Below the pieces are notes generated by a model that did no database searches, was not told where the DNA came from, and worked only from the letters and a program-made list of their open reading frames with translations. Of a stretch of DNA of 64,000 bases, positions 3,456 to 18,268 are shown piece by piece. The translations under genes were made by a program, and so were the position numbers. Each line of letters starts with the position of its first letter. Positions within the stretch are counted from its first letter, which is position 1. Source of the stretch: an uncultured Eubacteriaceae bacterium (GTDB taxonomy: Bacteria; Bacillota; Clostridia; Lachnospirales; CAG-274); NCBI GenBank assembly GCA_947086655.1, contig CAMTZM010000001.1, positions 1 through 64,000 of the forward strand, given 5' to 3'.

Positions 3456-3505
3456 CTATTATTTACCTCCTTTCTGCCGTCAAAGACTATTTGCAAAGTG
3501 CTTAT

Positions 3506-3602
3506 AACCGATGGTTTTTAACGAAGCATATGTATCTAAAAGGGAGTTTACACTCTCATTAAATATATACCTTTTAAAGCGGGAGACCTATTTATATCGG
3601 TT
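3506..3602 (+). repeat. MITE-like dispersed repeat, copy A
   Basis: The element is bounded by AACCGAT and its complement ATCGGTT. Inside it are a small hairpin (GGGAG...CTCTC) and the block AAAGCGGGAGAC before the right end. The same end sequences and internal order recur in copies B-E and G. It lies just upstream of the serine recombinase gene. The 5' flank CAAAGACTATT is also shared with copies B and E. Confidence 0.6.
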
Positions 3603-3710
3603 AAATTAATTATAACATATATAAAATTTATTTTCAAAAAATAATATACATAAACTTGTACTAATAAAATAAAATTTATATAGGAGGAATAAAAAATTAA
3701 ATGTAAGGAA

Positions 3711-3812
3711 GTGATTAAAATTAAAATCAATTATATATGCAATGATTATAAATACATAAAGTCTGTATTAATAAATTTAATTGTAAAAAAAATAATAACA
3801 AAACAAGAGTGA
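3711..3812 (+). CDS. Possible 33-residue leader ORF before the serine recombinase
   Basis: A GTG-started reading frame of 33 codons (MIKIKINYICNDY..., lysine and isoleucine rich) ends four bases before the recombinase ATG. An AGGAGG lies about 24 bases upstream and AAGGAA touches the GTG, so its translation signal is poor. I recognise no family. It may only be chance in AT-rich DNA. If it is translated it could couple translation to the recombinase. Confidence 0.15.
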   Translation: MIKIKINYICNDYKYIKSVLINLIVKKIITKQE

Positions 3813-3816
3813 TTAT

Positions 3817-5340
3817 ATGTATAAAAATGATAAAATTCCAATAGCGGCATACTGCCGTGTATCAACAGAAAAAGAAGAACAGCTTTTAAGTCTTTTGTCA
3901 CAGAAAAAATTTTTTGAGGATTATTCAAAACTAAATAATTATGAACTTGTACAGCTTTATGCAGATGAGGGAATAAGCGGTACTAAGCTAAAAAATAGAA
4001 AAGCGTTTAACAAAATGATGATTGATGCTGATAAAGGTCTTTTTAAAAAAGTATTTGTAAAAGATATATCACGGTTTGCAAGAAATGCTGTTGATTTTTT
4101 AAACAGTATAAGAATGCTTAAAGAAAAAGGTATAAAGTGTGAATTTATAAATTCAAATTTATCGACAGAAGACGGAGAATTTACATTGGGAATACTTGCG
4201 TTGGTTGCTCAGGAAGAAAGTGCTAACATATCTAAAAGAGTTAAGTTTGGAAAGGCAAAAAACGCTGAAAAGGGAAAAGTTCCCAATTTAGTTTATGGAT
4301 ATAATAAAATATGCGGAGAATTATTTGATTTAAAAATAAATAATTATGAAGCAGAAGTAGTAAAAAAAATATTTTCAATGTATACAACAGAAGGGATGGG
4401 AGCAAATAAAATAGCTAAATATTTAAACGATAACGGTATAAAAACAAAGAGGAATTGCAAATGGACTCAAACGTCTGTAACTCGCATTTTAAAAAATCCT
4501 ATTTACATTGGTGTAATAATAAACAGAAAAGAAGAAATATTAGATTTTTTAACCGGAAAAAGAATAAAAAACAAAAAAGATAAATGGCTTATAAAAAATA
4601 ATCCATCAATATCAATTATTGATGAATATATGTTTAAAAAAGCTCAAGATATATTAAGCAAACGATTTGAAAGTTTTAAGTCTGAAAATAGAAGAAATAT
4701 AAGTAATTATCCTATGTCAACGCTTATAAAATGTGATTGCTGCAATCATTTTTTTATACGTGTGAAAAAGAAACTTAAAACTAAGGAATATGTAAAGTGG
4801 TGCTGCGGCGGAAGAAAAAGTTATGGAGCTAAGTATTGCCAAAATAAAACATATATAGATGAAAAAGACTTTATTAATAAATTAAAGGATTTTATATTTC
4901 AAATAATAATTAATGATAAAACGGTAAAATCAAGAGTTTATAAGCTTTTAGAAGAATCAATTAATAATCAGGGTGAAAGTTTGGAATTATATAATTTTAA
5001 AAAAGAATTAAATAAACTTTCTAAAATAAAGCAAAAACAAATAAAAATGTATGAAACAGATACAATAAGTATTGAAGAATTAAAAGAACGTACCGATGAA
5101 TTAAATAATAAAATTAATTTTTATAAAAACTCAATTAAAAGTATAGAACTTAAAAATAAAAGTACTAATGTAAAGTATTTATTGGATAATTTATTTTTAA
5201 ATTCCGAAAATTTATTTTTTGAAGGGTTTATAGATAATATATTTTTAAAAAATATTATAAGCAGCATAATTGTAACAAAAAACGGTGAAATAAATATTTA
5301 TTTCAAAGAAATATCAAAAAATTTTAATGATTTAAAATAA
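3817..5340 (+). CDS. Large serine recombinase
   Basis: The 507-residue protein has the whole large-serine-recombinase layout. The N-terminal resolvase domain (about 7-155) has the nucleophile Ser16 in YCRVSTEKEEQ and the catalytic-arginine block DISRFARN. A recombinase domain follows (about 165-275), then a zinc ribbon (about 290-355, with CDCC and CCGG cysteine pairs) and a long coiled coil (about 375-450). This family cuts and rejoins DNA at paired att sites; SpoIVCA, which rebuilds sigK in Bacillus, belongs to it. No phage or transfer genes are nearby, so this is a stand-alone copy, placed between repeat copies A and B. It is about 4 kb from the split spoIIID gene and is the only recombinase in the window, so it is the natural candidate for that inversion (inference). 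Confidence 0.93.
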   Translation: MYKNDKIPIAAYCRVSTEKEEQLLSLLSQKKFFEDYSKLNNYELVQLYADEGISGTKLKNRKAFNKMMIDADKGLFKKVFVKDISRFARNAVDFLNSIRMLKEKGIKCEFINSNLSTEDGEFTLGILALVAQEESANISKRVKFGKAKNAEKGKVPNLVYGYNKICGELFDLKINNYEAEVVKKIFSMYTTEGMGANKIAKYLNDNGIKTKRNCKWTQTSVTRILKNPIYIGVIINRKEEILDFLTGKRIKNKKDKWLIKNNPSISIIDEYMFKKAQDILSKRFESFKSENRRNISNYPMSTLIKCDCCNHFFIRVKKKLKTKEYVKWCCGGRKSYGAKYCQNKTYIDEKDFINKLKDFIFQIIINDKTVKSRVYKLLEESINNQGESLELYNFKKELNKLSKIKQKQIKMYETDTISIEELKERTDELNNKINFYKNSIKSIELKNKSTNVKYLLDNLFLNSENLFFEGFIDNIFLKNIISSIIVTKNGEINIYFKEISKNFNDLK

Positions 5341-5403
5341 AAATTGTAATTATGATTTTCAATTCAAAAACTATTCACATTTTTGCTTTGCAAAAAATAC
5401 TCA

Positions 5404-5472
5404 TAACAAACGGTTTTCAACGAAACCTTTGTATTTAATAGGAACTTATACTCCTACTTACTTATACTGGTT
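5404..5472 (+). repeat. MITE-like dispersed repeat, copy B (short)
   Basis: The ends are degenerate (AACAAAC...ACTGGTT). An internal hairpin TAGGA...TCCTA takes the place of GGGAG...CTCTC in copy A. The preceding 40 bases, about 5366-5403, match those before copy E almost base for base (TTTTTGCTTTGCAAAA then ACTCATAAC). Confidence 0.5.
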
Positions 5473-5479
5473 AAAAAAA

Positions 5480-5515
5480 CGGGTAAAAATATTTGTTTTT
5501 ACCCGCCATTTTTTA
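5480..5515. terminator. Bidirectional terminator between recombinase and MATE gene
   Basis: The stem CGGGTAAAAA / TTTTTACCCG is followed by ATTTTTT on the plus strand and preceded by seven A on the other side. It can stop transcripts of the two converging genes. Confidence 0.8.
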
Positions 5516-6847
5516 TATTTTTTTCTCTCCTAATGCCCTTGTATATTTTATCATATAATAAATGACAATAACAGAAACAAGCAATTCTGTAACAGGCATT
5601 GCAAGCCATAATCCAATATCTTCTGCAATAACAGGCAGAAGAAGTATCATTATGCCGCTTACAACCAATCCTCTGCAAACAGAAATAACAAAAGCAATTT
5701 TAGGTTTTGAAATAGCTTGAAAATAATACATTGAATATACATTAAGCGGCAATAATAAAAATGATATGCAATAAAGCCGTATAATCTTTGGTGCAATGCT
5801 TATTATTTTTGGTGTAGCAGATATAAAAATTTTGATAATGGGTACAGGAAAAAACATAGTTGCACAAGTCCAAAAAGCCGAAAAGAAAGAGGCAGTTATA
5901 AGCGAATATTTTAAAATTTGTTTTATTCTTATCCACTTTTCAGAGCCGAAATTGATAGAAATGATTGGCTGTGCTGCCTGCCCTATACTATACACACACA
6001 CTTGTGCGCAAGTGCTGATATTTACAATAACTCCATAAACAGCTAATGCGTCTGTACCTGCATATTTCATGATTTGATTATTTAAAAGAACAGTTATAAT
6101 TCCCATTGCTATATCAACAAAGAATGTAGAAAAACCTGCTGTAATAATCAGTTTAAATTTTGAAAAAATATTTTGTACTTTTACAATTTTCATGCTGTTT
6201 TTATTTGATATAAAATGCGTTGCCATAATACCTAATGAAATAACACTTCCAATTGCAGTAGCAAGTCCGGCACCAAATATTCCCATATGTAAAACAAATA
6301 CAAAAAAGCAATCGCCGAAAATATTGAATATACCTCCTGCCACAACAGCGACGGTTGCAAGTTCAGGGTTTTTATCATTTCTTAAAAATGCGGCTAATAA
6401 TTGTCCAAACAGATATGTTGGAAATACAACCTTAATCGGAAGTAAATATTTTTTTGCTAATGGTAATAAATTATTGTCTGCTCCAAAAAAACTTAGTATT
6501 TGACTGTCTAACAGTATAATCAAAATCCAGCAAATTAATGCGGCAATGCTTCCGAAAATAATAGAGACAGTAAAATATTCGTTTTCGTTTTCTCCTTGCT
6601 TTTCTTTCTTTCCCCGTATTATACTAAAAAAAACAGCCCCTCCAATGCCAAATAACAATCCTAATCCATATATAATATTCCAGACAGGAGCAACGACAGC
6701 AAGAGCTGCAATTCCGTTTGAACCTTGATTTTGTCCGACAACAATGGTGTCTGCAAAACTATAAATTGTACCAATAAGCGAACTTCCAAAGGCTGCTGAT
6801 AAATATTTAAAATACAGCCTTTTTATATTTCCCTGTAATAAGTCCAT
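5513..6847 (-). CDS. MATE-family efflux transporter (MepA-like)
   Basis: This 444-residue, roughly twelve-span membrane protein is of the multidrug and toxic compound extrusion family. It opens with MDLLQGNIKRLYFKYL and has the usual early motif for this family (SLIGTIYSFADTIVVGQNQG). It exports cationic compounds using an ion gradient. The start is preceded by GAGGAGG. Its mRNA begins with a structured leader ending in an intrinsic terminator (see the riboswitch entry), so expression is probably induced by a ligand. In Clostridia, MepA-type MATE genes behind such leaders are linked to guanidine-IV riboswitches, so guanidinium export is my best guess for its job. Confidence 0.9.
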   Translation of the reverse strand: MDLLQGNIKRLYFKYLSAAFGSSLIGTIYSFADTIVVGQNQGSNGIAALAVVAPVWNIIYGLGLLFGIGGAVFFSIIRGKKEKQGENENEYFTVSIIFGSIAALICWILIILLDSQILSFFGADNNLLPLAKKYLLPIKVVFPTYLFGQLLAAFLRNDKNPELATVAVVAGGIFNIFGDCFFVFVLHMGIFGAGLATAIGSVISLGIMATHFISNKNSMKIVKVQNIFSKFKLIITAGFSTFFVDIAMGIITVLLNNQIMKYAGTDALAVYGVIVNISTCAQVCVYSIGQAAQPIISINFGSEKWIRIKQILKYSLITASFFSAFWTCATMFFPVPIIKIFISATPKIISIAPKIIRLYCISFLLLPLNVYSMYYFQAISKPKIAFVISVCRGLVVSGIMILLLPVIAEDIGLWLAMPVTELLVSVIVIYYMIKYTRALGEKKI

Positions 6848-6868
6848 ATATTTTTCCTCCTCACAAAA

Positions 6869-6965
6869 AAAGTGCGCTCGGATAATTATTTAACTATCCG
6901 AGCGCACTCGACATCATTCTCGACTTTGCAATTACGATTGCAAGTCCTCCGATGAACCACAATTA
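6869..6965 (-). promoter_or_regulatory. Structured leader with terminator before MATE gene; probable guanidine-IV (mepA) riboswitch
   Basis: Read on the minus strand, the leader has a first hairpin built from GACTTGCAAT and ATTGCAAAGTC within CATC...GATG flanks (6912-6954). A terminator follows, with stem GTGCGCTCGGAT / ATCCGAGCGCAC (6872-6906) and seven T, directly before the gene's ribosome site. Two stem-loops ahead of a MATE gene in Clostridia fit the mepA motif (guanidine-IV class, a transcriptional on-switch). I cannot run a covariance search, so the class is from context and shape. An ATG ATG TCG AGT GCG CTC GGA TAG frame overlaps the 5' terminator arm, which would also allow ribosome-based attenuation. 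Confidence 0.55.
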
Positions 6966-7021
6966 TTTAATTGTGTACATGAAATAATATGAAAAGATAT
7001 ATATTATAGCTAACAATACTT

Positions 7022-7050
7022 ATTATATATATAAAAAATGCTATTGTCAA
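7022..7050 (-). promoter_or_regulatory. Sigma-A promoter of the MATE transcription unit
   Basis: TTGACA (7045-7050) and TATAAT (7022-7027) are both perfect and 17 bases apart on the minus strand. A leader of about 165 bases would precede the gene. Confidence 0.8.
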
Positions 7051-7149
7051 TATGTTTTAAAAAAAATCTGTTTTATTTTGTTACTAAATATAACTGCATT
7101 TTTTCATATAGACATATAAAACAATTACAATGTATATTTACTATTTTCT

Positions 7150-7201
7150 AACAAAACTGATTGGAATAAAGTGGAATTAAATCCCACTTACTCCGTCGGT
7201 T
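7150..7201 (+). repeat. MITE-like dispersed repeat, copy C (shortened)
   Basis: This copy ends in CTCCGTCGGTT, the consensus right end, and keeps one hairpin (AGTGG / CCACT). The left end, TAACAAAAC, is poor. Most of the inner part found in copies D and E is missing. Confidence 0.5.
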
Positions 7202-7230
7202 AAACTGCCTGAAATGTTTGTTTTTATTAA

Positions 7231-7542
7231 TTAATGTATAATGAATAATTCTAAAATAAATACAACTGTACATGATACAAAAGCGACTTTAAACAAACTT
7301 CCTCCTCTATATGCAAGTATGAGAGCGACAATAAAACCGGCTATTCTTGGAAATTTATTTCCTTCGACATTTAAAATTTCTGGAAATGTCATTACAGCAA
7401 GGCTTACATATGGAACATAGTGTAAAAATGATTTTATGTAAATATTTTTTATTTCTTTTCTTATAAGAGTAAAAGGCAAAAGTCTTATTGTATATGTTAC
7501 AAGAGCCATTACTAAAATATAAATATATATGTTTCCTTTCAT
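7231..7542 (-). CDS. azlD: Branched-chain amino acid exporter small subunit AzlD
   Basis: A 103-residue membrane protein of the AzlD family with about four hydrophobic segments. The TIRLLPFTLIRKEI motif is usual for the family. AzlC and AzlD together export branched-chain amino acids. It starts two bases after azlC ends, with GGAGGAATAAAA before the ATG, so the pair is one transcript. Confidence 0.85.
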   Translation of the reverse strand: MKGNIYIYILVMALVTYTIRLLPFTLIRKEIKNIYIKSFLHYVPYVSLAVMTFPEILNVEGNKFPRIAGFIVALILAYRGGSLFKVAFVSCTVVFILELFIIH

Positions 7543-7544
7543 TT

Positions 7545-8249
7545 TTATTCCTCCTTTATAGGAAATAATACAGCGGCTCCTCCGGCGATTACTGCGGTAA
7601 GAATAATAATTTTAAATCCTTGCGACAAATTATTTAAAACAGGTATATAATAAAAAATAAAGCTTAAAAGCATGGACAGTATAACAATACCTTTTAAAAT
7701 TTTATTCTTTCTTGTGGGAGGAATAATAACAGCTATAAACATGCTGTAAAGTGCTATGCTTAAAGAGCTCATTATTCTGTCAGGAAGTATGTTTCCGGAT
7801 GCTATTCCTAAAATTGTTCCTAAAACCCAGCCGGGTACAGCCGCCGTCATTAATCCATATGTATAAAATGGATTTAAGTGACCTTCTGCACTATATGAGA
7901 TTCCAAATATTTCATCAGATATACCGGCAGCCATTATAAATCTATGAAAAAAAGCTGTACTTTCCGATAATTTTTGTGAAAGTGCACATGACATTAAACA
8001 ATATCTAAGGTTAATAACAAATTGTGTAACAGCCATTTCAAAATATGATGATGCTGCCGATATTAAGCCTAATGAGGCAAACTGTCCTGCGGAGGTTAAA
8101 TTTGATGCCGACATAAATGCTCCTTGAAAGACAGATAAACCAATGTTTTTTGCAGCTATTCCAAAAGAAAATGAAACAGCTAAATAACCTATAAAAATAG
8201 GAATTCCGTTTTTAACACCATTTTTAAAACTTATAAAATTAGTTTCCAT
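7545..8249 (-). CDS. azlC: Branched-chain amino acid exporter large subunit AzlC
   Basis: A 234-residue membrane protein. FKNGVKNGIPIFIGYLAVSF near the N-terminus and MSASNLTSAGQFASL are typical of AzlC. With AzlD it exports leucine, isoleucine and valine analogues. I prefer the ATG at 8249, which matches the family N-terminus; GGAGG lies about 16 bases upstream. The frame is open to an ATG at 8285 that overlaps the stop of the upstream gene (ATGA) but has no ribosome site of its own, so translational coupling from 8285 is possible. Confidence 0.85.
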   Translation of the reverse strand: METNFISFKNGVKNGIPIFIGYLAVSFSFGIAAKNIGLSVFQGAFMSASNLTSAGQFASLGLISAASSYFEMAVTQFVINLRYCLMSCALSQKLSESTAFFHRFIMAAGISDEIFGISYSAEGHLNPFYTYGLMTAAVPGWVLGTILGIASGNILPDRIMSSLSIALYSMFIAVIIPPTRKNKILKGIVILSMLLSFIFYYIPVLNNLSQGFKIIILTAVIAGGAAVLFPIKEE

Positions 8250-8281
8250 AACATTATATAAAAATCCTCCAATTAATAATT

Positions 8282-9220
8282 TCATTCGTATATATGTTCG
8301 CAGCTATCTCGTCCAAAATCCCAAGCAGAATTAGAACCAATTTTACTATCTTCATAATTTTCTTCTGTAAAATATTCTTTTTTTACCCATTTGCCGTTTG
8401 AAAATTCTTCTATCGTCCAGCTCCATTTTGTTTCTTCTTCGTCCGAATAAGTTTCAATAGGTTCTTCTGTAAGTCTTTCTTTTTCAATAAATTTCCCGTC
8501 TATAAAATAATACTTTCCAATGCTGTGTGATGCAGCCCAATTTCTCCAGTAACATAAAATTACTTTATTTTCCTTATCAATAACTGGATTTGGTATTTCG
8601 GAAAAACTTTCGCACAATTCAAATTTGTTTTCAGTTTGTAAGTAACATGAGTAGCTAACAAACCCTTGATTTCCGTAATGTCCTCGAAACAGTAAAATGT
8701 CGTTTTTTCCATCAAAGTTTACATCTTTTTCAACTAACCTATTTTTTATTTCATTTTCACTATCGAATATATCTGCATAATCATCTTTATAATCTCTTAA
8801 AACGGTTACAATAGAGTTATTTTTTAAAACAACAATTTCCCAATACAAAATTTTGTTATAACTAAATTCTTCGTCTTCATCAAAATTTTTATTTTCATTA
8901 TATGAAATTCCAAAAATTGCATAGTCATATTCTTCGCCTTTAAATTCCATATAAGCATATATTTTGCATTCATCATCAATTTTTATATGAGAAAGGTAAG
9001 ATTCATTATAATATAATTGTGTTGTTTGTTCTGAAATAGTATTTGAAGAAGTTATTTCCGTTGTCTGTTCTGAAACAACTATAACTGATGATTCTTCTAA
9101 ATTTATGTCATTTATTTTTTTATCTGAATAGGAATTTAATGTTTTATAATAAATAAAAAAAACGAAAAAAATAAATAAAATTATAAAAAACAAAGCTATA
9201 ATTTTTTTATTTTTCAGCAT
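8282..9220 (-). CDS. Membrane-anchored protein with FG-GAP-like repeat (XAC2610-like)
   Basis: A 312-residue protein with an N-terminal membrane anchor (residues 6-27), a Ser/Thr/Glu-rich linker with two SEQTT repeats (about 50-68), and an outside domain. The domain contains DVNFDGKNDILLFRGHYGN, a calcium-loop-like motif seen in XAC2610-type proteins common in gut Clostridia. The function is not known. It overlaps the long azlC frame by four bases, so it may be in the same transcript. The family call is from the motif only. Confidence 0.65.
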   Translation of the reverse strand: MLKNKKIIALFFIILFIFFVFFIYYKTLNSYSDKKINDINLEESSVIVVSEQTTEITSSNTISEQTTQLYYNESYLSHIKIDDECKIYAYMEFKGEEYDYAIFGISYNENKNFDEDEEFSYNKILYWEIVVLKNNSIVTVLRDYKDDYADIFDSENEIKNRLVEKDVNFDGKNDILLFRGHYGNQGFVSYSCYLQTENKFELCESFSEIPNPVIDKENKVILCYWRNWAASHSIGKYYFIDGKFIEKERLTEEPIETYSDEEETKWSWTIEEFSNGKWVKKEYFTEENYEDSKIGSNSAWDFGRDSCEHIYE

Positions 9221-9273
9221 ATTTCAATCATCCTTATCTATATATTAAATATTTATTTTTAAACTTAAAAACA

Positions 9274-9306
9274 TAAAAAAGCGACTTAACAACAACATTA
9301 AGCCGC
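9274..9306 (-). terminator. Terminator after the spoIIID 5' half
   Basis: On the minus strand, GCGGCTTAA and TTAAGTCGC pair (one G-U) around TGTTGTTG and are followed by six T. The stop codon of the truncated spoIIID frame lies in the 5' arm. In the present arrangement it ends the spoIIID 5'-half transcript. Confidence 0.75.
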
Positions 9307-9450
9307 CTTTAGCAGTCTTCTTTTATTTACGTCTGTATGTACGGTTGATTTGCTTATTCCAAATTTTTTTGCTGTTTCCCTGACAGTAGCGTTACTTTTA
9401 ATAATAAATTCTGCAACCTCTATCGCTCTTTCTTCAATATAAGCTTTCAA
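9298..9450 (-). CDS. spoIIID: SpoIIID N-terminal half, gene cut at an inversion site
   Basis: The 50-residue product starts at TTG 9450 after AAGGAGGG. Residues 1-38 (KAYIEERAIEVAEFII ... FGISKSTVH) are the N-terminal half of SpoIIID, the DNA-binding regulator of mother-cell sporulation genes between SigE and SigK. After STVH the family continues KDVTERL, but here it runs into TDVNKRRLLKAA and stops. The break is inside the helix-turn-helix, so this product should not bind DNA normally. The missing C-terminal half is 2.2 kb away on the plus strand (11588-11743). The junction lies in a 22-bp inverted repeat (9327-9348). I read this as one half of a gene split by inversion, not as a separate small protein. 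Confidence 0.88.
   Translation of the reverse strand: MKAYIEERAIEVAEFIIKSNATVRETAKKFGISKSTVHTDVNKRRLLKAA
9327..9348 (-). repeat. Left copy of the spoIIID inverted repeat (recombination site)
   Basis: On the minus strand it reads TCAACCGTACATACAGACGT plus AA. It matches the right copy (11588-11609, plus strand) at 19 of 22 bases, with a shared core GTACATA (9336-9342). It coincides exactly with the point where the SpoIIID similarity stops. Confidence 0.85.
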
Positions 9451-9522
9451 GAAATTGCCCTCCTTAAAAAAATCATTTATAAAAATATATGACAAATATA
9501 TAATAATATAACCATGTTTAGA

Positions 9523-10005
9523 TTATTTAGCTGTTAAAACTCCAACCTTGATATTAGAAACAAAATAATCAGGTCTTGTAGAATTTATTGTAATAAAATG
9601 AAAAGCAAGACGTTCTCTTATATCAAGTAAATCAACATTAGTTCTTCCATAATTTCTTTCGCTTACAATTTCATTTCTTCTATTTGATATTACAGAAGCA
9701 ATATTATTTTGATAATTATAATTAAATGAACTTTTTCTTGTATTCAAATTTCTAATTGCGAGCCTTATGCTGTTTTCAATACATCTATATTCTTCATTAT
9801 TACTTGAAGACATATTAAATGTATTATCGACAATATTTAAGTCATTAGTTTTATTAACACTGTTTTTTATTTCGTTTTCATAATGTTTATAGCTTTTGTG
9901 GTTATTTTTTTTGTTCATCTTGTCATTAACTTTAGTATTTCTTTTAGATGATACATTTTCAAAATAACCAAACCCAGAATCATTATTGTTAATAACCGTA
10001 GACAT
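9523..10005 (-). CDS. Asn-rich hypothetical protein upstream of spoIIID
   Basis: A 160-residue hydrophilic protein very rich in asparagine, serine and lysine, with no signal peptide or membrane segment. The first half looks disordered. The second half (about 70-160) is more regular (IENSIRLAIRNLNTRKSS, DLLDIRERLAFHFI). AAAGAGGTGG precedes the ATG. It lies 72 bases upstream of the spoIIID start on the same strand inside the invertible segment, so the two are likely co-transcribed in either orientation. I recognise no family. Confidence 0.6.
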   Translation of the reverse strand: MSTVINNNDSGFGYFENVSSKRNTKVNDKMNKKNNHKSYKHYENEIKNSVNKTNDLNIVDNTFNMSSSNNEEYRCIENSIRLAIRNLNTRKSSFNYNYQNNIASVISNRRNEIVSERNYGRTNVDLLDIRERLAFHFITINSTRPDYFVSNIKVGVLTAK

Positions 10006-10137
10006 AAAACCACCTCTTTTTTAATAAATGTTCAAAAAAATTATGAAAAACAAAATCAACACGTTTTACTTTATAATATAAATTTAATTCTTTTACTATA
10101 AAATGTCAAGTATTATAATAAAAAAACAGCATATTTT

Positions 10138-10245
10138 AACCAACTAAGTTGTTTGCCATGCGTTATAAATATAGTAAATGGGATAATACCACTTACTGCA
10201 AGAGTAGAAACCCCCTTAAAAAACGTGAGACTTCCTATGTCGGTT
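10138..10245 (+). repeat. MITE-like dispersed repeat, copy D
   Basis: The right end CTATGTCGGTTAAAT matches the consensus, and the left end AACCAACT is degenerate. It shares GGATAATACCACTTACT with copy E. It lies inside the predicted invertible segment, in the 380-base gap between two divergent genes. Confidence 0.6.
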
Positions 10246-10386
10246 AAATAACTATTGTCAATTTATGTCAAACGAATCATATCAAATGTCGAATGAATTG
10301 TGTTGTATTATGAATATATAGTAGGTATAATTTATATATAAAAAACAACAAAATATAACAAAAAAATACTATAAGGAGTTAATTAA

Positions 10387-10629
10387 ATGATAACTATAAA
10401 TTATACGATTAATACAACTGTTCATGATGGATTTAGCAAAGAAGAATGTTCATATACTTTTTTTGGCATTTCTGCTTTAGATGAAAATAATAATGAAATA
10501 GTTTCAATAAATGATATATCTTCTTCACGTAATGACATAGAATTACTTATTAATAAATTTAATGAAAATAAGCTTTCTCTTATACATTTTTATGATGCTG
10601 TTGAAGATTTTATGGCTGAAAACAATTAA
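10387..10629 (+). CDS. Small DUF6514-like protein
   Basis: An 80-residue acidic protein with ATAAGGAG before its ATG. The pattern (TVHDGFSKEECSYTFFGISA ... VVSINDISS-like turn, then a C-terminal helix LIHFYDAVEDFMAEN) resembles the short clostridial DUF6514 family, whose role is unknown. It stands alone on the plus strand inside the invertible segment and is followed by a strong bidirectional terminator. Confidence 0.55.
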   Translation: MITINYTINTTVHDGFSKEECSYTFFGISALDENNNEIVSINDISSSRNDIELLINKFNENKLSLIHFYDAVEDFMAENN

Positions 10630-10716
10630 GGCGCATAAGGAAATAATTTATTTACAGTTTAAATGGTGTTTGGCATCATAAATTTTAGTTTATATTTTAT
10701 ACTATTATATTACATA

Positions 10717-10765
10717 AATAAAGCTGATGTGAAGTGTTAATTACTTTACATCAGCTTTATTGTTT
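10717..10765. terminator. Bidirectional terminator
   Basis: AATAAAGCTGATGTGAAGT pairs with ACTTTACATCAGCTTTATT (one mismatch-like G-U) around GTTAATT, followed by TGTTTT. It sits between two converging genes. Confidence 0.85.
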
Positions 10766-10786
10766 TACTGGTTTTTAGTGTTGATT

Positions 10787-11317
10787 TTAATGAGAAAATA
10801 AATTTTTAAGTACAGAAATTTTGTTTTTTAATAGGTTATTAAATTGGTTTAAAACCTCAAATGTAGCACAGTATTTATCAGCTATTGTAATAATAACAGA
10901 TTCTTTATATCGAGGAATACCGAAACATAAAGGCCACATATGTTTTAATATAGCATCTTCCTCAATTTTATTAAGGTTTGTTATTTTATGCGAGTTTTTC
11001 AAAGCTTCCTTTGGATGATAAAAAGCATGATTTTGCCCAAGGTCAGCCGTTCTCCAATCATATAAAAATAAATCATGCAGCATTCCGGCACGTGCAGCAG
11101 ACCTATAATCAAAGTGAAGTACTTTGCAAATTAAATAGCTGTAATAAGCTACGTTTAATGAATGCTGGAATCTTGAAGTATTGCAGTGTTGGAAATAATT
11201 TTTTAATTCCTGTATTTCATCTTTTTCAAGTAATTCATCTATACAGTCCATAAATTCAATAGCAAAAAAACTTTCATAATCATTAAAATCAACTTTAGAA
11301 CCTAAAACCTTATTCAT
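10787..11317 (-). CDS. HD-domain hydrolase
   Basis: A 176-residue cytosolic protein of the HD/HDIG superfamily. It has HSLNVAYYSYLI (first His), HDLFLYDW (HD pair), HAFYHPKEA and ADKYCA, enough to form the metal site of a phosphohydrolase. Similar small HD proteins are common in Clostridia and their substrate is unknown. AGGAGTGCTG lies before the ATG. It lies inside the invertible segment. Confidence 0.8.
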   Translation of the reverse strand: MNKVLGSKVDFNDYESFFAIEFMDCIDELLEKDEIQELKNYFQHCNTSRFQHSLNVAYYSYLICKVLHFDYRSAARAGMLHDLFLYDWRTADLGQNHAFYHPKEALKNSHKITNLNKIEEDAILKHMWPLCFGIPRYKESVIITIADKYCATFEVLNQFNNLLKNKISVLKNLFSH

Positions 11318-11357
11318 TTAAAACAGCACTCCTATTCTTTTATAATTGACAAACAGC

Positions 11358-11395
11358 CTCTTACTAATTGTTTAAATATAAAGAATTAGTAAGAG
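11358..11395. promoter_or_regulatory. 12-bp inverted repeat upstream of the HD-domain gene
   Basis: CTCTTACTAATT and AATTAGTAAGAG are perfectly complementary around a 14-base spacer, about 40 bases upstream of the HD gene. With no T run it is not an obvious terminator. An operator is possible. The rest of the gap 11318-11587 is plain AT-rich DNA. Confidence 0.4.
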
Positions 11396-11587
11396 AAAAT
11401 TCATAATTAAAAAAAGTTTGTAAATTTCAGTAAGATTTTATATAGTTATTTATAATATTATAAAAAATATTATATCATTATACATGTAATCATTATAACA
11501 TACAATAGTTAATTAATCATTAAAATTTTTAATTTTATTATAAGAAATATTTTCATTATTTTTATTAAAAAAAATGAACTTATTTTG

Positions 11588-11609
11588 TCAACTGTACATA
11601 AAGATGTAA
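11588..11609 (+). repeat. Right copy of the spoIIID inverted repeat (recombination site)
   Basis: It reads TCAACTGTACATAAAGATGT plus AA on the plus strand, matching the left copy in inverted orientation at 19 of 22 bases. The core GTACATA is at 11594-11600. SpoIIID coding similarity begins exactly here; upstream is unrelated AT-rich sequence. Confidence 0.85.
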
Positions 11610-11743
11610 CGGAGAGATTAACAAAAATAAATCCTAAACTTGCCGGTGAAGCACGAAAGGTTTTAGAAATAAACAAATCAGAAAGACATATAAGGGGAGG
11701 GCTTGCTACGAGAGAAAAATATCTGCATAGACTTATAAAGTAA
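11588..11743 (+). CDS. spoIIID: SpoIIID C-terminal half, without its start
   Basis: An open frame of 51 codons plus stop encodes STVHKDVTERLTKINPKLAG and so on to GGLATREKYLHRLIK. It fits residues 35-85 of SpoIIID, including the second helix-turn-helix helix, the NKSERHIRGG segment and the basic C-terminus that contacts DNA. There is no ribosome site or start codon, and the preceding bases do not encode the N-terminal half. That half is on the opposite strand at 9298-9450. No stop or frameshift has accumulated, so the half appears to be kept under selection, as expected if it is periodically rejoined. Confidence 0.88.
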   Translation, partial: STVHKDVTERLTKINPKLAGEARKVLEINKSERHIRGGLATREKYLHRLIK

Positions 11744-11816
11744 TATTTAATGTAAATAATAAAATTTTTAAAAAGGTCAAAGACTATTCGCATTTTTGCT
11801 TTGCAAAAATACTCAT

Positions 11817-11914
11817 AACCGACGGTTTCTAACGAAACTAATGTAGTAGGATAATACCACTTACTAAAAGAATAAGCGCCCCGCTTAAAGGGCGTGGGAC
11901 TTCATTTGTCAATT
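11817..11914 (+). repeat. MITE-like dispersed repeat, copy E (most complete)
   Basis: The left end is AACCGACGG and the right end is GTCAATTAAAT (a decayed form of GTCGGTTAAAT). Between them are GTAGGATAATACCACTTACT and a hairpin CCCCGC...GCGTGGG. The 40 bases to its left match those left of copy B. It follows the spoIIID 3' half directly. Confidence 0.6.
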
Positions 11915-11926
11915 AAATCCCGTGTT

Positions 11927-11957
11927 TAAACAACATGGGGTTTTTGTTTTATAAAAA
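11927..11957 (+). terminator. Terminator after the spoIIID 3' half
   Basis: CCCGTGTT and AACATGGGG pair around TAAAC and are followed by TTTTTGTTTT. It would end a rebuilt spoIIID transcript before the purine permease gene. Confidence 0.75.
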
Positions 11958-12066
11958 TAAAGAATATTTTTTGAAAATTTTTAAAGAGTTTTTATGCAAA
12001 TTTTATTGATTTGTAGAAAAATGTCGTTTTTTATATGTTTTTTATTTATAATAGTATAAGGTTTTA

Positions 12067-12096
12067 TTGACAAGCATTTGTTGAATTTGGTATTAT
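12067..12096 (+). promoter_or_regulatory. Promoter of the purine permease gene
   Basis: TTGACA (12067-12072) and TATTAT (12091-12096) are 18 bases apart. The gene starts about 33 bases downstream, so there is no room for a riboswitch. Confidence 0.6.
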
Positions 12097-12128
12097 TAAC
12101 TTAAATATTGTACAAAGGAGGAAGAAGA

Positions 12129-13466
12129 TTGGATTTTTTTAAGTTAAAAGAAAATAATACAACAGTAAGAACAGAAGTCTTTGCCGGAATTACTACATTT
12201 ATGACTATGGCTTATATTCTTATTGTTAATCCTAATATTATGCAAAATGCCGGTATGAGTCGTGAATCTGTTTTTACGGCAACTGCTCTTGCGGCTTTTA
12301 TAGGCACTATGGCAATGGCTCTTTTGGCTAACTATCCTTTTGCACTTGCGCCATGTATGGGACTTAACGCATATTTTGCCTTTACTGTTGCAAGTGAAAA
12401 CGGTTGGGAAATTGCGTTAATAGCAGTATTTATTGAAGGTTTAATTTTTATTTTATTTTCCATAGTAAATGTACGTGAAATTATTTTTAATTCAATACCT
12501 AAAACATTAAAACAGGCAACAAGTGTAGGAATAGGTTTTTTTATCGCTTTTATAGGACTTCAAAATGCCGGAATAGTTGTTTTTAATGAAAGTACATGTG
12601 TTTCTTTGGGGGATATAAGTAACATAGGCACTATACTTGCTTTTTTTGGTTTAATTCTTACGGCATATTTGTCATATAAAAAAGTTAAAGGCGCTTTATT
12701 TTGGGGCATATTTGTTACATATTTATTAGGTATTGCGTGTGAACTTATAGGTTTATATATTCCAGAGCCTGAAAATGGGGTTTATTCTCTTATACCAGAG
12801 GGTATAGTTTCTTTTCCGCATTCTGTTTCGGGATATAATATATTTTCGGCTTTTAAAAATGTAGACTTTAGCGTTATAGGTGTATTTGATATAGCTGTTG
12901 TTGTTTTTTCATTTCTTTTTGTTGATATGTTTGACACAATAGGAACTCTTGTAGGCGTTTCCGAAAAGGCAGGGTATTTAGACAAAGAAGGAAAACTTCC
13001 AAAGCTTAAAAATGCGCTTTTAGCCGATGCAATTGCTACAACCTTTGGCGCTTGTGTAGGTACATCGACTACATCAACTTTTGTTGAAAGTGCATCAGGT
13101 GTAGCGGAGGGAGGAAGAACTGGGCTTACATCAATAGTTACAGCAGGACTTTTTTTAATTGCCCTTTTTTTTTCACCGGTCTTTACTTCCATACCAACAT
13201 TTGCCACTGCTCCGGCTCTTATTATTGTAGGATTATTTATGATTGATGGTATAGTAAATATAGATTTTAAGGATTATACAGAAGGATTTCCGGCATTTGT
13301 AACAATAATTATGATGCCTCTTGCTTATAGTATAGCTGACGGGCTTGCTTTTGGATTTTTAAGTTATATTATATTAAAGGTGTTGACAGGAAAGACTAAA
13401 GATGTTAGTATCATAATGTATATTATTGGAGTAATATTTTTAATTAAATTTATAGTTCAATTTTAA
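12129..13466 (+). CDS. NCS2-type purine (guanine/hypoxanthine/adenine) permease
   Basis: A 445-residue membrane protein of the AzgA/PbuG branch. MDFFKLKENNTTVRTEVFAG followed by ITTFMTMAYILIVNP is the family opening, and GTSTTSTFVESASGVAEGGR carries the substrate-site region. It takes up purine bases by proton symport. The start is TTG at 12129, seven bases after AAAGGAGG. It lies just upstream of purH, so purine uptake and purine synthesis are neighbours. Confidence 0.9.
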   Translation: MDFFKLKENNTTVRTEVFAGITTFMTMAYILIVNPNIMQNAGMSRESVFTATALAAFIGTMAMALLANYPFALAPCMGLNAYFAFTVASENGWEIALIAVFIEGLIFILFSIVNVREIIFNSIPKTLKQATSVGIGFFIAFIGLQNAGIVVFNESTCVSLGDISNIGTILAFFGLILTAYLSYKKVKGALFWGIFVTYLLGIACELIGLYIPEPENGVYSLIPEGIVSFPHSVSGYNIFSAFKNVDFSVIGVFDIAVVVFSFLFVDMFDTIGTLVGVSEKAGYLDKEGKLPKLKNALLADAIATTFGACVGTSTTSTFVESASGVAEGGRTGLTSIVTAGLFLIALFFSPVFTSIPTFATAPALIIVGLFMIDGIVNIDFKDYTEGFPAFVTIIMMPLAYSIADGLAFGFLSYIILKVLTGKTKDVSIIMYIIGVIFLIKFIVQF

Positions 13467-13470
13467 TGTT

Positions 13471-13546
13471 TTGCATTACTGACGGATTTACGCGGATTTA
13501 ACCGCATTGGAGTGCAGAATTTGTTTATTAGCCGGCCGTCTGGGCA
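13471..13546 (+). promoter_or_regulatory. ZTP riboswitch (pfl motif) before purH
   Basis: The first stem is built from TGCATTACTGACGG and TTGGAGTGCA around an inner hairpin (CGCGG / CCGCA). After a linker comes the hallmark GCCGGCCGTCTGGGCA. This order matches the pfl motif that binds ZTP/ZMP and commonly controls purH. The 3' part overlaps the arm of a terminator, so ligand binding should allow read-through. ZMP is the substrate of the enzyme it controls. Confidence 0.85.
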
Positions 13547-13573
13547 GTTTTGTGCCCGGAAGTCGGTTTTTTT
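13531..13573 (+). terminator. Riboswitch-controlled terminator before purH
   Basis: CCGGCCGTCTGGGCA pairs with TGCCCGGAAGTCGG around GTTTTG and is followed by seven T. Its 5' arm is the conserved 3' part of the ZTP aptamer, so the two folds exclude each other. Confidence 0.85.
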
Positions 13574-13600
13574 ATTATAAAAGATAGGGAGGATAATCAA

Positions 13601-15163
13601 ATGAAAAAGAAAAGAGTTTTGATAAGTGTATCTGACAAAACAGGTATTGTTGAGTTTGCAAAAAAAATAAGTGCTCTTGATTTTGAAATTGTTTCGACAG
13701 GCGGTACTTATAATGTTTTAAAAGATTCGGGAATTTCTGTAATAAATATTTCTGATGTAACAGGATTTCCGGAGTGTTTGGACGGACGTGTAAAAACGCT
13801 TCATCCTAAAATACATGCTGGTTTGCTTGCTGTAAGAGACAGTAATGAGCATATGAAACAAATTGAAGAGCTTGATGTTGAACTTATAGATTTAGTTGTT
13901 GTAAATTTATATCCTTTTAAGCAGACAATATTAAAAGAAAATGTTAAACTTGAAGAAGCTATTGAAAATATTGATATAGGCGGGCCTACTATGTTAAGAG
14001 CGGCGGCTAAAAATTATAAATATGTTTCTGTTGTTATAGATCCGTCAGATTATGATAAGGTTATTGAAGAAATAAAATCTAACGGCAAAGTATCGGAAAA
14101 AACAAATTTTTATCTTGCTGCAAAAGTATTTAATCATACAGCGCATTATGATACATTGATTGCGAATTATTTAAGAGATAAAGCTAATATTGAAAAGTAT
14201 CCTTATACAATAAGTATGACTTTTGAAAAGATACAAGATATGCGTTATGGAGAAAATCCTCATCAGAAAGCGGCATTTTATAAAGAAGTTTCAAATAATG
14301 AAGGTATGCTGACAGGAATCGAGCAGCTTCATGGAAAAGAATTATCATTTAATAATATAAATGATACTCATGGAGCGCTTGAACTTTTAAAGGAGTATAC
14401 AGAACCGACAGTTGTTGCATGCAAGCATTCAAATCCTTGCGGAGTAGCAAGTGCTGATAATATTTATGACGCATATATGAAAGCATATAATTCAGACCCG
14501 GTTTCTATTTTTGGAGGAATAGTTACAGCAAACAGAACTATTGACAAGGCTACGGCAGAAGAAATAAACAAAATATTTCTTGAAATTGTTTTAGCTCCTG
14601 ATTTTACAGACGATGCGCTTGAAATTTTGAAAAAGAAAAAGAATATAAGACTTTTAAAACTTAAAAATATAGAAAGAAAACAAGATGAAAAATGTTATGA
14701 TATTAAAAAAGTTTCGGGCGGAATACTTATTCAGGATATTGATAATCTTACTTTAAATGAGTCTGAATTAAAAGTTGTTACAGAGAGAAAACCTACTGAT
14801 AAAGAAATGAAAGACCTTTTATTTACATGGAATATTGTTAAATTTACAAAATCAAATGGAATTGCAATAGGAAAAGATAAACAGTCTGTTGGTATAGGCC
14901 CCGGACAGGTAAACAGAATATGGGCTGCAAAACAGGCTATTGAACATGGTATAAATCAGCTTGGAGAGGATTTTGTAAAAGGCGCTGTACTTGCTTCCGA
15001 TGCGTTTTTCCCATTTTCAGATTGTGTAGAAGAGGCAGCAAAGGCAGGTATTACCGCTATAATCCAGCCGGGTGGTTCAATAAGGGATGAAGATTCTATA
15101 AAAGAATGTAATAAGCATGGAATTGCTATGGTATTTACAGGTATAAGGCATTTTAGACATTAA
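13601..15163 (+). CDS. purH: Bifunctional AICAR formyltransferase / IMP cyclohydrolase
   Basis: A 520-residue enzyme for the last two steps of IMP synthesis. The N-terminal MGS-like cyclohydrolase domain (1-about 195) has [13 protein letters not shown] and STGGTYNVL. The C-terminal transformylase domain has [13 protein letters not shown] and the catalytic Lys-His motif [10 protein letters not shown]. The length is normal. The ATG at 13601 has GGGAGG upstream; an in-frame upstream start at 13550 lies inside the terminator stem and is unlikely. No other pur gene is adjacent. Confidence 0.96.
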
Positions 15164-15215
15164 TACCAAAAACGTCTGAAATGTATATAAAAATTTACTA
15201 TTTATAGCAAATTTT

Positions 15216-15258
15216 TTAACCGACGGAGAAATTCCCCCGTTTTTAAAACGGGGGTACT
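15216..15258 (-). repeat. MITE-like dispersed repeat, copy G (partial, reversed)
   Basis: Read on the minus strand it ends in CTCCGTCGGTTAAA like copy C. It includes the hairpin CCCCCGTTTTTAAAACGGGGG, which may also serve as the purH terminator. It is the only copy in reversed orientation. Confidence 0.45.
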
Positions 15259-15303
15259 TAATTTATGTTTTATTAAAAAATATTACTTAAAGGGAATGAT
15301 TTT

Positions 15304-16218
15304 ATGCTTGATGTGGCTTTACTTGGTACAGGCGGCATGATGCCGCTTAGAGACCGTTTTTTAACTTCATTAATGCTTAGATATAATGGAAAATTTTTAA
15401 TGGTTGATTGTGGAGAAGGAACACAAATAAGTTTAAAGATATTAGGCTGGGGTTTTAAGAATATAGATGTTATATGTTTTACACATTACCATGCCGACCA
15501 TATTTCGGGACTGCCCGGAATATTATTGACTGTGGGAAACTCAGGACGAACAAAACCTATGACTTTAATTGGACCAGAAGGTTTAAAAAAAGTGTACGAA
15601 GGCTTATCCGTTATATTTCCAGAACTTCCTTTTGAAGTAAATTGTATTGAGGTAACAGATGCTGAAAAATTTAGTTTTATGTTAGATGATATGGAAATAA
15701 CTGTAAATGAAGCTGACCATATAATAAGATGTTTGTCATATGGATTTTACTTAAAGAGAAAAGGAAAGTTTGATGCTGAAAAGGCAAGCAGTTTAAATAT
15801 TCCTAAAAATTTATGGGCATCGCTTCAAAATAATAAAAGCGTTGTTTTTAATGGAGTTAAATATGATTCTGAAATGGTTATGGGAAAGGAAAGAAGAGGT
15901 ATAAAAGTTTGCTATTGTACCGATTCCCGCCCTGTAAAAACTCTTCCGGATTTTATAAAAAATGCTGATTTATTTATATGTGAAGGTATGTATGGAGAAG
16001 AAGAAAAATTTGAAAAAGCTCTCAAATATAAGCATATGATTTTTAGTGAGGCGGCTACGCTTGCTAAAGAGGGAAATGTGAAAAAGCTTTGGCTTACTCA
16101 TTACTCGCCGGCGCTGCCTGAGCCGGAAATTTTTTATGAGTGCGCTGCTAAAATTTTTGAGAATACAGTTGTGGCTTATGACAGAATTACAGATAAACTA
16201 TTATTTGAAAATGAATAG
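15304..16218 (+). CDS. rnz: Ribonuclease Z
   Basis: A 304-residue metallo-beta-lactamase-fold nuclease that removes the 3' trailer of tRNA precursors. The zinc motif FTHYHADHISGLPG is near residue 60. Other metal ligands are in NEADHIIRCLSYGF, CYCTDSRP and LTHYSP, in the order expected for the RNase Z family. The length is normal. AAGGGAATG lies before the ATG. Confidence 0.9.
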   Translation: MLDVALLGTGGMMPLRDRFLTSLMLRYNGKFLMVDCGEGTQISLKILGWGFKNIDVICFTHYHADHISGLPGILLTVGNSGRTKPMTLIGPEGLKKVYEGLSVIFPELPFEVNCIEVTDAEKFSFMLDDMEITVNEADHIIRCLSYGFYLKRKGKFDAEKASSLNIPKNLWASLQNNKSVVFNGVKYDSEMVMGKERRGIKVCYCTDSRPVKTLPDFIKNADLFICEGMYGEEEKFEKALKYKHMIFSEAATLAKEGNVKKLWLTHYSPALPEPEIFYECAAKIFENTVVAYDRITDKLLFENE

Positions 16219-16240
16219 GATTTATATTTATTTAATTTAA

Positions 16241-16265
16241 GAAGTTTGAGTAAACTTTTTTTTGT
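16241..16265 (+). terminator. Terminator after rnz
   Basis: AAGTTTGAGTAAACTTTTTTTT forms a short stem with a four-base loop and a T run, ahead of the sigma-factor gene. Confidence 0.5.
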
Positions 16266-16306
16266 TTTTTTCGTTTAATTTTTTAAGAAAAAAGAAAAGT
16301 ATAATT

Positions 16307-16335
16307 ATAATAAATACTAAAAAGGTATTTATTAT
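16307..16335. promoter_or_regulatory. 11-bp inverted repeat upstream of the ECF sigma gene
   Basis: ATAATAAATAC and GTATTTATTAT are perfectly complementary around seven bases, 62 bases before the start codon. It could be an operator, but AT-rich palindromes occur by chance. Confidence 0.3.
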
Positions 16336-16396
16336 AAATTGGCTTTTGTAAAAAAATACATCAGAAAAAGGCTTTTATAAAAATTGGTGGTGCTTT

Positions 16397-16975
16397 ATGT
16401 ACGATAATTTAGATGAATTAAATGATTATGATATTATAAAAAGATGTTTGTCGGGAGATAAGGATATTTTTTCTGTACTTGTTTCAAGATATAAAAATCT
16501 TGTTTACTCAATTATACTTCGTATGATTACTAACAGTGAGGAAGCAAACGATTTAGCACAGGAAGTTTTTATAAAAATATATAAAAATCTTGAAAAATAT
16601 TATCCTCAGTATAAGTTTTCAACATGGGTTATACGTATTACTACAAATCACGTAATAGATTATAGAAGAATGAAAAAGCAAGATAATGTTCCTATTGACG
16701 ATGTTTCTTATGATTTGTCTTCAGATGAGTCGCCGGAGAGCCTTTATTTGAAAAAGGAAAGAAAGATTAGTATTGAAAAACTTGTAAGCGAACTGCCGGA
16801 AATGTACAAAATACCTATTGTTCTTTATCATCAACAAGGTTTGTCATATCAGGAAATAGCGCAGGTTACTGACGAGTCTCTTTCAAAGGTTAAAAATAGA
16901 ATATTCAGAGGTCGAAGAATGCTTAAAGAAAGTCTGCTTAAAATGAAAGAAGGTGGAAATATTGAATTGCAATAA
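16397..16975 (+). CDS. ECF-family RNA polymerase sigma factor (SigW-like)
   Basis: A 192-residue sigma-70 family protein with only regions 2 and 4. Region 2 includes SEEANDLAQEVFIKIYKNL and FSTWVIRITTNHVIDYRR. Region 4 includes GLSYQEIAQ and SLSKVKNRIFRGRRML. Such factors direct envelope-stress genes. It overlaps the anti-sigma gene, which is typical of a sigma/anti-sigma pair. Confidence 0.9.
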   Translation: MYDNLDELNDYDIIKRCLSGDKDIFSVLVSRYKNLVYSIILRMITNSEEANDLAQEVFIKIYKNLEKYYPQYKFSTWVIRITTNHVIDYRRMKKQDNVPIDDVSYDLSSDESPESLYLKKERKISIEKLVSELPEMYKIPIVLYHQQGLSYQEIAQVTDESLSKVKNRIFRGRRMLKESLLKMKEGGNIELQ

Positions 16976-17519
16976 AGCTGATTTGCTTATAATGAAATAT
17001 ATGGATGGTTTAATTAGCGATGAGGAAATAATTAAGCTTAAAGAGCATATTTCTGTATGTGATAAATGCAAAGAGGATTTTATGGTTTATAATAAAATTC
17101 TTGATGAATTTTCTGATAATTCCAATATTATAAATGCCCCTTCTGATTTTGAAGAACAGGTAATGGCTAAAATTGATTTTGTTTATTCAGGAAATACAGA
17201 AAGGTCAATAAATATACTATGTTTTATTTGGGGATTGTTTTCTGTTTTTGCCGGATTAGGAACGATTTTAATAATAAATAAAGAAAAGATAATAGAATTT
17301 ATTTCTAATGTACCTAATCTGAGCGGATATTTAGAATTGATAAGTAAGGCTGAAATTTATGCAGAGGAGTTTAAAAATAGTTTTATAAGCGTAGTTGAAA
17401 CAACGTTTAATACGTGCACGCATTATATAGATTCTTTAAAATATGTAAGTCTTATTATTTTTGTAATATTGATTGCGGCACAATATTTAATTTACAAAAA
17501 AGGTAAGGTAGAAGTATAA
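16962..17519 (+). CDS. Membrane anti-sigma factor with zinc-finger domain
   Basis: About 185 residues. The N-terminal zf-HC2 domain carries the zinc motif HISVCDKC (His-x3-Cys-x2-Cys), which binds ECF sigma factors. A first membrane segment (about 85-105) and a C-terminal one (about 165-180) follow. I chose TTG at 16962 after GAAGGTGG; a GTG at 16953 in the same frame is also possible. Either overlaps the sigma gene. It should hold the sigma factor at the membrane until stress. Confidence 0.82.
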   Translation: MNCNKADLLIMKYMDGLISDEEIIKLKEHISVCDKCKEDFMVYNKILDEFSDNSNIINAPSDFEEQVMAKIDFVYSGNTERSINILCFIWGLFSVFAGLGTILIINKEKIIEFISNVPNLSGYLELISKAEIYAEEFKNSFISVVETTFNTCTHYIDSLKYVSLIIFVILIAAQYLIYKKGKVEV

Positions 17520-18268
17520 TGAATAAGAGAAAATGGTTTTGTCTGATATTATTGATTACAGCGGTTGGGTTTTATATTTACAAACCGGTTTATGCTGTAT
17601 TTTTGGATTTTTTTATATCAGAAAAGCCATTTTTTATTGTTTTTCAAGATAAATTTAAAGAAATTATGACTTATATAAGTAAATTTTTATTTATTGATTT
17701 TATTCCTATATCTGCAAATGATAAAAGTATAATTCTCTCAGCGGTTTATTTTGTAATAGGCATTGTATTTTTTAGTTTTAATACAGCTCTTTTTGAACAA
17801 GGGGCAATGGCTATTGTAAATGAGCAAAAAAGTATAATTAAATATGGTATATTGGGTTATGGTATTATTTTATGCATAATTGTTGTTTTTTTGTTTTCTA
17901 TTGTAGGGGCAGGCATTTCTATTGTTCTTGTATATGTTGTTTTTGTGCTTACGGCTTTGGGAAAAGTTTCTCTTGCCTTATTAATAGGTTTTTATACAAT
18001 GAGATTCAAATATAGGTATATGAATATATTAATAGGATATGCAGTTGTTTTTTTACTTGAAAATATGCCTTTTTTCGGCTGGTTTGTTTCGGCTGTATAT
18101 ATTCCGATTATTACTATTGGTGCGGTTTATGTTAGTATAATGAATTACATAAATAAAAAGTTTTATGAGCCTATGTTTTATGAAAATAAAAGAAATGAGT
18201 TTGACCGCCAAAAGATTTATGATAAAATAATATCAAATGATATTCAGGAGGAAGAAAATGAAAAATAA
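17519..18268 (+). CDS. Multi-span membrane protein in the sigma-factor operon
   Basis: A 249-residue protein with about six hydrophobic segments and a charged C-terminal tail ([17 protein letters not shown]). I recognise no named family. It starts on TAATG at the stop of the anti-sigma gene and overlaps tsaD by 11 bases, so the four genes are one operon. A role with the anti-sigma factor in the membrane is possible but unproven. Confidence 0.75.

Follow-up and report, generated by a model that had tools for sequence, protein, structure and literature searches.

A large serine recombinase (LSR) encoded ~4 kb from one half of a split spoIIID gene is probably the integrase of a spoIIID-intervening element, and would flip a 2,263-bp segment of the chromosome to rebuild spoIIID during sporulation. 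SpoIIID switches mother-cell transcription from its early to its late phase. In the genome under study (G000; G- and L-numbers denote relatives' genomes and loci, respectively) its gene exists only as two inverted halves, with no other copy in the genome. Both halves and the LSR lie in the 64,000-nucleotide stretch of DNA that was analysed (the window), and the features discussed are collected in Table 1.

Split spoIIID, its sites and the recombinase

When the segment between the two site cores was flipped in silico, the halves joined as a single uninterrupted spoIIID frame of 85 codons, with a TTG start after AAGGAGG, whose product scores 129 bits against TIGR02844 (cut-off 111.5). As in elements of the skin class, a sporulation gene is interrupted at the site of a recombinase, and the two parts fit back together in frame. 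Rejoined SpoIIID has 85.8% mean identity to SpoIIID of other families, the highest among the 18 family members compared (68.7–81.5% for the others), and this holds for each half taken separately. A dead-end split would mean decay of the halves, which are instead the best conserved, and spoIIID is therefore still used. Moreover, sigK is uninterrupted and spoIVA is present and intact so that, with its restorable spoIIID, G000 appears to be a spore-former that has to rebuild this gene. A ZMP/ZTP riboswitch is present upstream of purH elsewhere in the window (13465–13552).

The sequence-only reading had described the recombinase as complete and catalytically intact, ~4 kb from the left spoIIID site and unaccompanied by phage or transfer genes, all of which was borne out. 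Its intact ORF encodes Resolvase (PF00239), Recombinase (PF07508) and zinc beta-ribbon (PF13408) domains, and in the alignment with homologues the catalytic R14, S16, D83, R86 and R89 are unchanged and the zinc ligands C306, C309, C330 and C341 likewise invariant. The protein thus has the make-up of a serine integrase, with the catalytic serine and arginines, an N-terminal resolvase domain, a recombinase domain and a zinc beta-ribbon with coiled coil, and its predicted fold (mean pLDDT 70, read at the domain level only) resembles those of full-length serine integrases, some of them complexed with a directionality factor. From the LSR stop codon to the left site is 3,986 bp, and no phage or transfer genes were found near the LSR among the ORFs read. 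The only other LSR match in the genome, 33% identical, is on a different contig. Two copies of a dispersed repeat bracket the LSR operon; this repeat, of which the genome has at least 40 copies (in the window at 3479–3534, 5364–5426, 10181–10249 and 11771–11935), has no family match in Rfam, i.e. is no known RNA, and may have helped shift the LSR away from the spoIIID 3′ half.

The two 22-bp sites proposed earlier are real, inverted and identical at 19 of 22 positions (three mismatches), but relatives' sites share only the core GTNCATA, and the full 22 bp are therefore not the conserved unit. The consensus attP, built from 34 P arms and 18 P′ arms of relatives, reads AcCGTTCT.aTTAgtaACaAC.GTA-CAT-AtGGT.GTAa.aAAATagAACGGTT, its arms being inverted around the histidine codon of S-T-V-H-K-D; the arms of G023, G089, G082, L071 and L089 are palindromic well above shuffles, and in G023, G089 and L071 the inverted arms are clear even singly. 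The G000 sites retain the core GTACATA, with no palindrome in the arms above chance (11 versus 10.6 shuffled), and the P and P′ arms hardly fit the family consensus. Different arms are to be expected, since the G000 LSR, too, is far removed from most of its homologues (36–59% identity in the alignment), and some decay of the arms is also conceivable.

Table 1. Features of the split spoIIID locus and the recombinase operon (window coordinates).
Feature	Position	Strand	Details and basis
SigE-like promoter of small ORF/LSR operon	3628..3656	+	TTATTTT-14-CATAAACT; 12/15 consensus matches; spacing and offset as in relatives
Small ORF, candidate directionality factor	3711..3812	+	30–33 codons; homology and position
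Large serine recombinase (LSR)	3817..5340	+	507 aa; Pfam domains, conserved residues, fold matches, sister of G026 LSR
Left site, attL	9327..9348	-	B half inside, P′ arm outside; core CAT 9337–9339; site comparison
spoIIID 5′ half	9337..9450	-	Codons 1–38, TTG start, good Shine-Dalgarno; TIGR02844 positions 1–43
Segment predicted to invert	9337..11599		2,263 bp; in-silico inversion restores spoIIID
SigE-like promoter of spoIIID	9484..9511	-	TTATATT-13-CATATATT; 13/15; position as for intact spoIIID of relatives
160-aa orphan protein	9523..10005	-	Orphan among 51 genomes; no family match
DUF6514 protein	10387..10629	+	80 aa; PF20124
HD-domain protein	10787..11317	-	Host core gene, not element cargo
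Right site, attR	11588..11609	+	P arm inside, B′ half outside; core CAT 11597–11599; site comparison
spoIIID 3′ half	11597..11743	+	TIGR02844 ~31 to 79

Association of the recombinase family with split spoIIID

Among 97 relatives, LSR homologues scoring above 260 bits occur in eight: seven have split spoIIID, and in the remaining one, G046, the LSR is truncated and spoIIID gave no match, while none of the 69 genomes with full-length spoIIID has such a homologue (Fisher p = 1.7e-9). For the best 58 LSR loci in GTDB genomes, 48 adjoin a spoIIID 3′ half, mostly 20–200 bp past the LSR stop codon. An order-wide survey of 395 genomes matched spoIIID in 249, whole in 204, in pieces only in 41 and weakly in three, with one more apparently split because of a run of Ns; at L055 (G045, 7473–7731), the spoIIID 'split' consists of Ns in the assembly and is no true one. 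Relatives with split spoIIID but without this recombinase, named beforehand as the case that would speak against its involvement, were mostly not encountered: 28 of the 34 further split genomes examined in detail carry the LSR, in 26 cases no more than ~420 bp from the 3′ half, and the six without it are drafts with the halves on different contigs or only one half found. The split codon is constant, the first piece ending at about model position 37–43 and the second beginning at about 34–39, with the exception of a few matches extending into the element. As with skin, the recombinase is encoded by the element and specific to the gene; in G000 it is 4 kb away from the segment, beyond the P′ arm.

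In the LSR tree, the G000 protein clusters with those of G026 (97/95) and G023, both of which adjoin split spoIIID, on a long branch (0.78 versus 0.27 for G026). Co-occurrence, adjacency and phylogeny thus strongly support the earlier proposal that this LSR acts on split spoIIID. They also change the picture of a lone domesticated recombinase, the LSR being instead one member of a broad spoIIID-specific integrase family. A counter-example is the spoIIID-clade LSR of L085 (6445–7917), which has no adjoining spoIIID half, in a genome (G428) with intact spoIIID. Intact spoIIID with extra 5′ halves nearby was observed in L063 (G015, 4018–17791), G283:C1:5111043-5122091 and G181:C52:25602-42865, the last two genomes having an extra 3′ half as well; these extra halves apparently reflect a duplication that freed one copy from the element.

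In a sister clade, the LSRs (L132, 2915–4423; L133, 6020–7537; L137, 10001–11506) adjoin fragments of cotJC, a coat gene of the Mn-catalase family, with CotJB beside the L133 and L137 LSRs, suggesting that cotJC is another split sporulation gene. An LSR clade comprising L115, L119–L121, L123–L126 and L128–L131 is directly followed by the 3′ part of a cysteine-rich coat-like protein (...LGLFTIVKLER.VQLLIPAYDFCIPEKEC...), for which the two members tested matched no Pfam family. The wider LSR group appears to specialise in sporulation genes. The LSR and a spoIIID 3′ half are also found in a sequence deposited as fecal bacteriophage (MT838016.1; L258, 2065–3760). We rejected this sequence as an excised circle: the 3′ half is part of it, and it is a piece of the chromosome. 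A viral origin of the LSR family was likewise discarded, as viral collections hold mostly distant members and only a handful with more than 40% identity.

Partner protein, promoters and proposed inversion

The 160- and 80-residue proteins encoded inside the segment, suggested in the sequence-only reading as possible directionality factors, were rejected as such, the former being an orphan with no relative among 51 genomes and no family match, and the latter a member of a general family, DUF6514. The HD-domain protein is ruled out as element cargo, since almost all genomes of the family have a single orthologue (47–61% identity), never located near spoIIID. A better directionality candidate is the tiny ORF that ends four bases ahead of the LSR start. 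It has no obvious ATG and starts at GTG 3711, or at ATT 3720 behind a strong Shine-Dalgarno sequence, AAGGAAGTGAT. Thirty of its residues align with the small proteins encoded upstream of the LSR in G026, G023 and L065–L068, those of G026 and G023 being shorter versions, and it scores 113 against the partner family, with the runner-up among 825 window segments at 65.5. A small protein is encoded upstream of this LSR in ~50 loci, mostly with an H-N-P-N motif. Homology and position thus make the small ORF a candidate recombination directionality factor.

SigE-type promoters have the consensus KMATATT, 13–15 bases, CATACAHT, which we used to scan upstream regions. Ahead of the small partner genes, 41% of relatives reach 12 of 15 matches, versus 5.7% of random windows, at a mostly constant offset. 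The same scan ahead of relatives' spoIIID gives 74% versus 6.7%, and hence recovers the expected spoIIID promoter and is validated by it. In G000, the motifs ahead of the small-ORF/LSR operon and of the spoIIID 5′ half (Table 1) suggest that both may be under SigE control.

The arrangement in G000 differs from that of its relatives. All other same-contig pairs of halves examined (28 of 28) have the direct orientation typical of skin, on one strand and 3.7 to 125 kb apart, and the reaction there is therefore excision, as with skin. Cultured relatives in which such a direct element is compact include Schaedlerella arabinosiphila (L082) and Blautia glucerasea (L076). The G000 halves are instead oppositely oriented across 2.26 kb that include the host HD gene, with the LSR outside, and recombination of attL with attR must therefore invert. 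This order is found in G000 alone; a putative second case, L104, was rejected, its halves sharing a strand 60 kb apart. Synteny was of no help in dating the inversion: the HD, DUF6514, 160-aa protein and azl/MATE genes keep no place near spoIIID in relatives, so that two evolutionary routes are not told apart. The locus likely originated from an element with an antisense LSR (cf. G026, G123) by a later, ordinary inversion, one end of which would lie close to the P arm and the other upstream of the HD gene; most of the element, along with the 5′ half and the host flank of that half, was most likely turned round in this event.

We infer that the LSR is active on the G000 sites, its attB being the spoIIID codon context S-T-V-H-K-D with core GTACATA. 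Vegetative cells would have a split spoIIID with attL and attR. In the mother cell, SigE would drive both the small-ORF/LSR operon and the spoIIID 5′ half, after which the LSR, with the small protein as directionality factor, would recombine attL with attR. In relatives, whose sites are direct repeats, this would excise the element; in G000, with inverted sites, the 2,263 bp would flip, the halves would join as an intact, SigE-driven spoIIID, and attP would stay in the chromosome. LSRs readily invert. That of Clostridioides difficile skin, for instance, flips DNA flanked by attP and attB in inverted orientation, and depends on a SigE/SpoIIID-controlled factor for attL x attR alone (PMC5025042). 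Because attP would be retained after the flip, the LSR alone could re-split spoIIID once the directionality factor is gone. SpoIIID as the product of a reversible DNA switch, that is, of a resettable developmental inversion, is thus a possibility that we raise tentatively, short of calling it probable. Rebuilding in relatives discards the element, a loss that only a terminal mother cell can tolerate.

Alternative explanations and comparison with known systems

Against LSR-driven rebuilding of spoIIID in G000 stand the diverged arms, the long LSR branch, the start of the small ORF, L085/G428, the six split genomes without an LSR match and the occurrence of the inverted order in a single genome. 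Arms that have diverged and lack the palindrome, a long LSR branch and a non-standard small-ORF start would also fit a frozen relic, in which a chromosomal rearrangement stranded the 5′ half, rebuilding of spoIIID has ceased and the LSR and its sites are in decay. We consider this unlikely: both spoIIID halves are better conserved than the intact genes of relatives; promoter, Shine-Dalgarno sequence, LSR catalytic residues and small ORF are all kept; and sigK and spoIVA are intact. Phase variation by random flipping in growing cells, leaving only part of the population able to sporulate, is the least likely of the alternatives, even though inverted sites lose no DNA, the flip is reversible in principle and inversions of this kind are known from gut Clostridia (e.g. 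the C. difficile flagellar switch). Phase switches act through simple inverted repeats, whereas the sites of the LSR are asymmetric and have P and B arms. In addition, a SigE-like promoter precedes the operon, and relatives all use excision, with no back-and-forth switching.

The inverted order could also be an assembly error, the true order being direct and skin-like and the 5′ half with its flank having been placed the wrong way round. The genome is a draft of 96 contigs, direct orientation is the rule in the other pairs, and copies of the dispersed repeat flank the LSR and occur close to the segment. Such an error would nevertheless have needed a false join within 11317–11585, where no repeat copy was found, in a contig (C1) of 227 kb, and we hold it to be very improbable; even if it were real, the assignment of the recombinase would still stand. 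Inversion by the LSR to rebuild spoIIID is our preferred explanation.

If it is correct, roughly a sixth of the order's genomes with spoIIID would rebuild this gene by recombination, DNA rearrangement would be far commoner in sporulation than the few known cases imply, and gene callers would wrongly report spoIIID as absent from many gut spore-formers. The inverted case would uncouple restoration of the gene from loss of the element, and hence offers a direct way to ask whether such elements serve regulation or are merely tolerated parasites. The LSR family, in turn, supplies dozens of integrase/attB/attP sets with candidate directionality factors.

In the open-access papers searched we found no report of a spoIIID-intervening element. 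There are parallels to known systems. SpoIIID itself regulates skin excision. As with the skin element in sigK (Bacillus subtilis SpoIVCA; C. difficile CD1231/CD1234), an LSR lies beside a split gene for a mother-cell regulator that attL x attR recombination rebuilds, in C. difficile with a small SigE/SpoIIID-controlled directionality factor (PMC5025042). Unlike skin, the target here is spoIIID, one step earlier in the cascade, with sigK intact in G000, and the inverted G000 sites would lead to inversion, with no DNA lost. The gin element in gerE of Bacillus cereus (GirC/GirX) is similarly a non-phage element in a gene for a very small DNA-binding regulator, with an LSR and a small partner (PMC5595907), but has another target, is of the deletion type, uses three recombinases and occurs in Bacilli. 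In SPbeta/spsM (SprA/SprB), vfbin (spoVFB) and vrin (spoVR), an LSR and a directionality factor likewise rebuild a sporulation gene (PMC4191935), but these are prophages or prophage-like, act by excision and have other target genes. Invertible phase switches such as the C. difficile flagellar switch share with the G000 locus the inversion of a chromosomal segment that alters gene expression, but rely on simple inverted repeats in growing cells, in contrast to LSR attL and attR sites inside a coding sequence. The spoIIID elements are further set apart from the known cases by their breadth across Clostridia.
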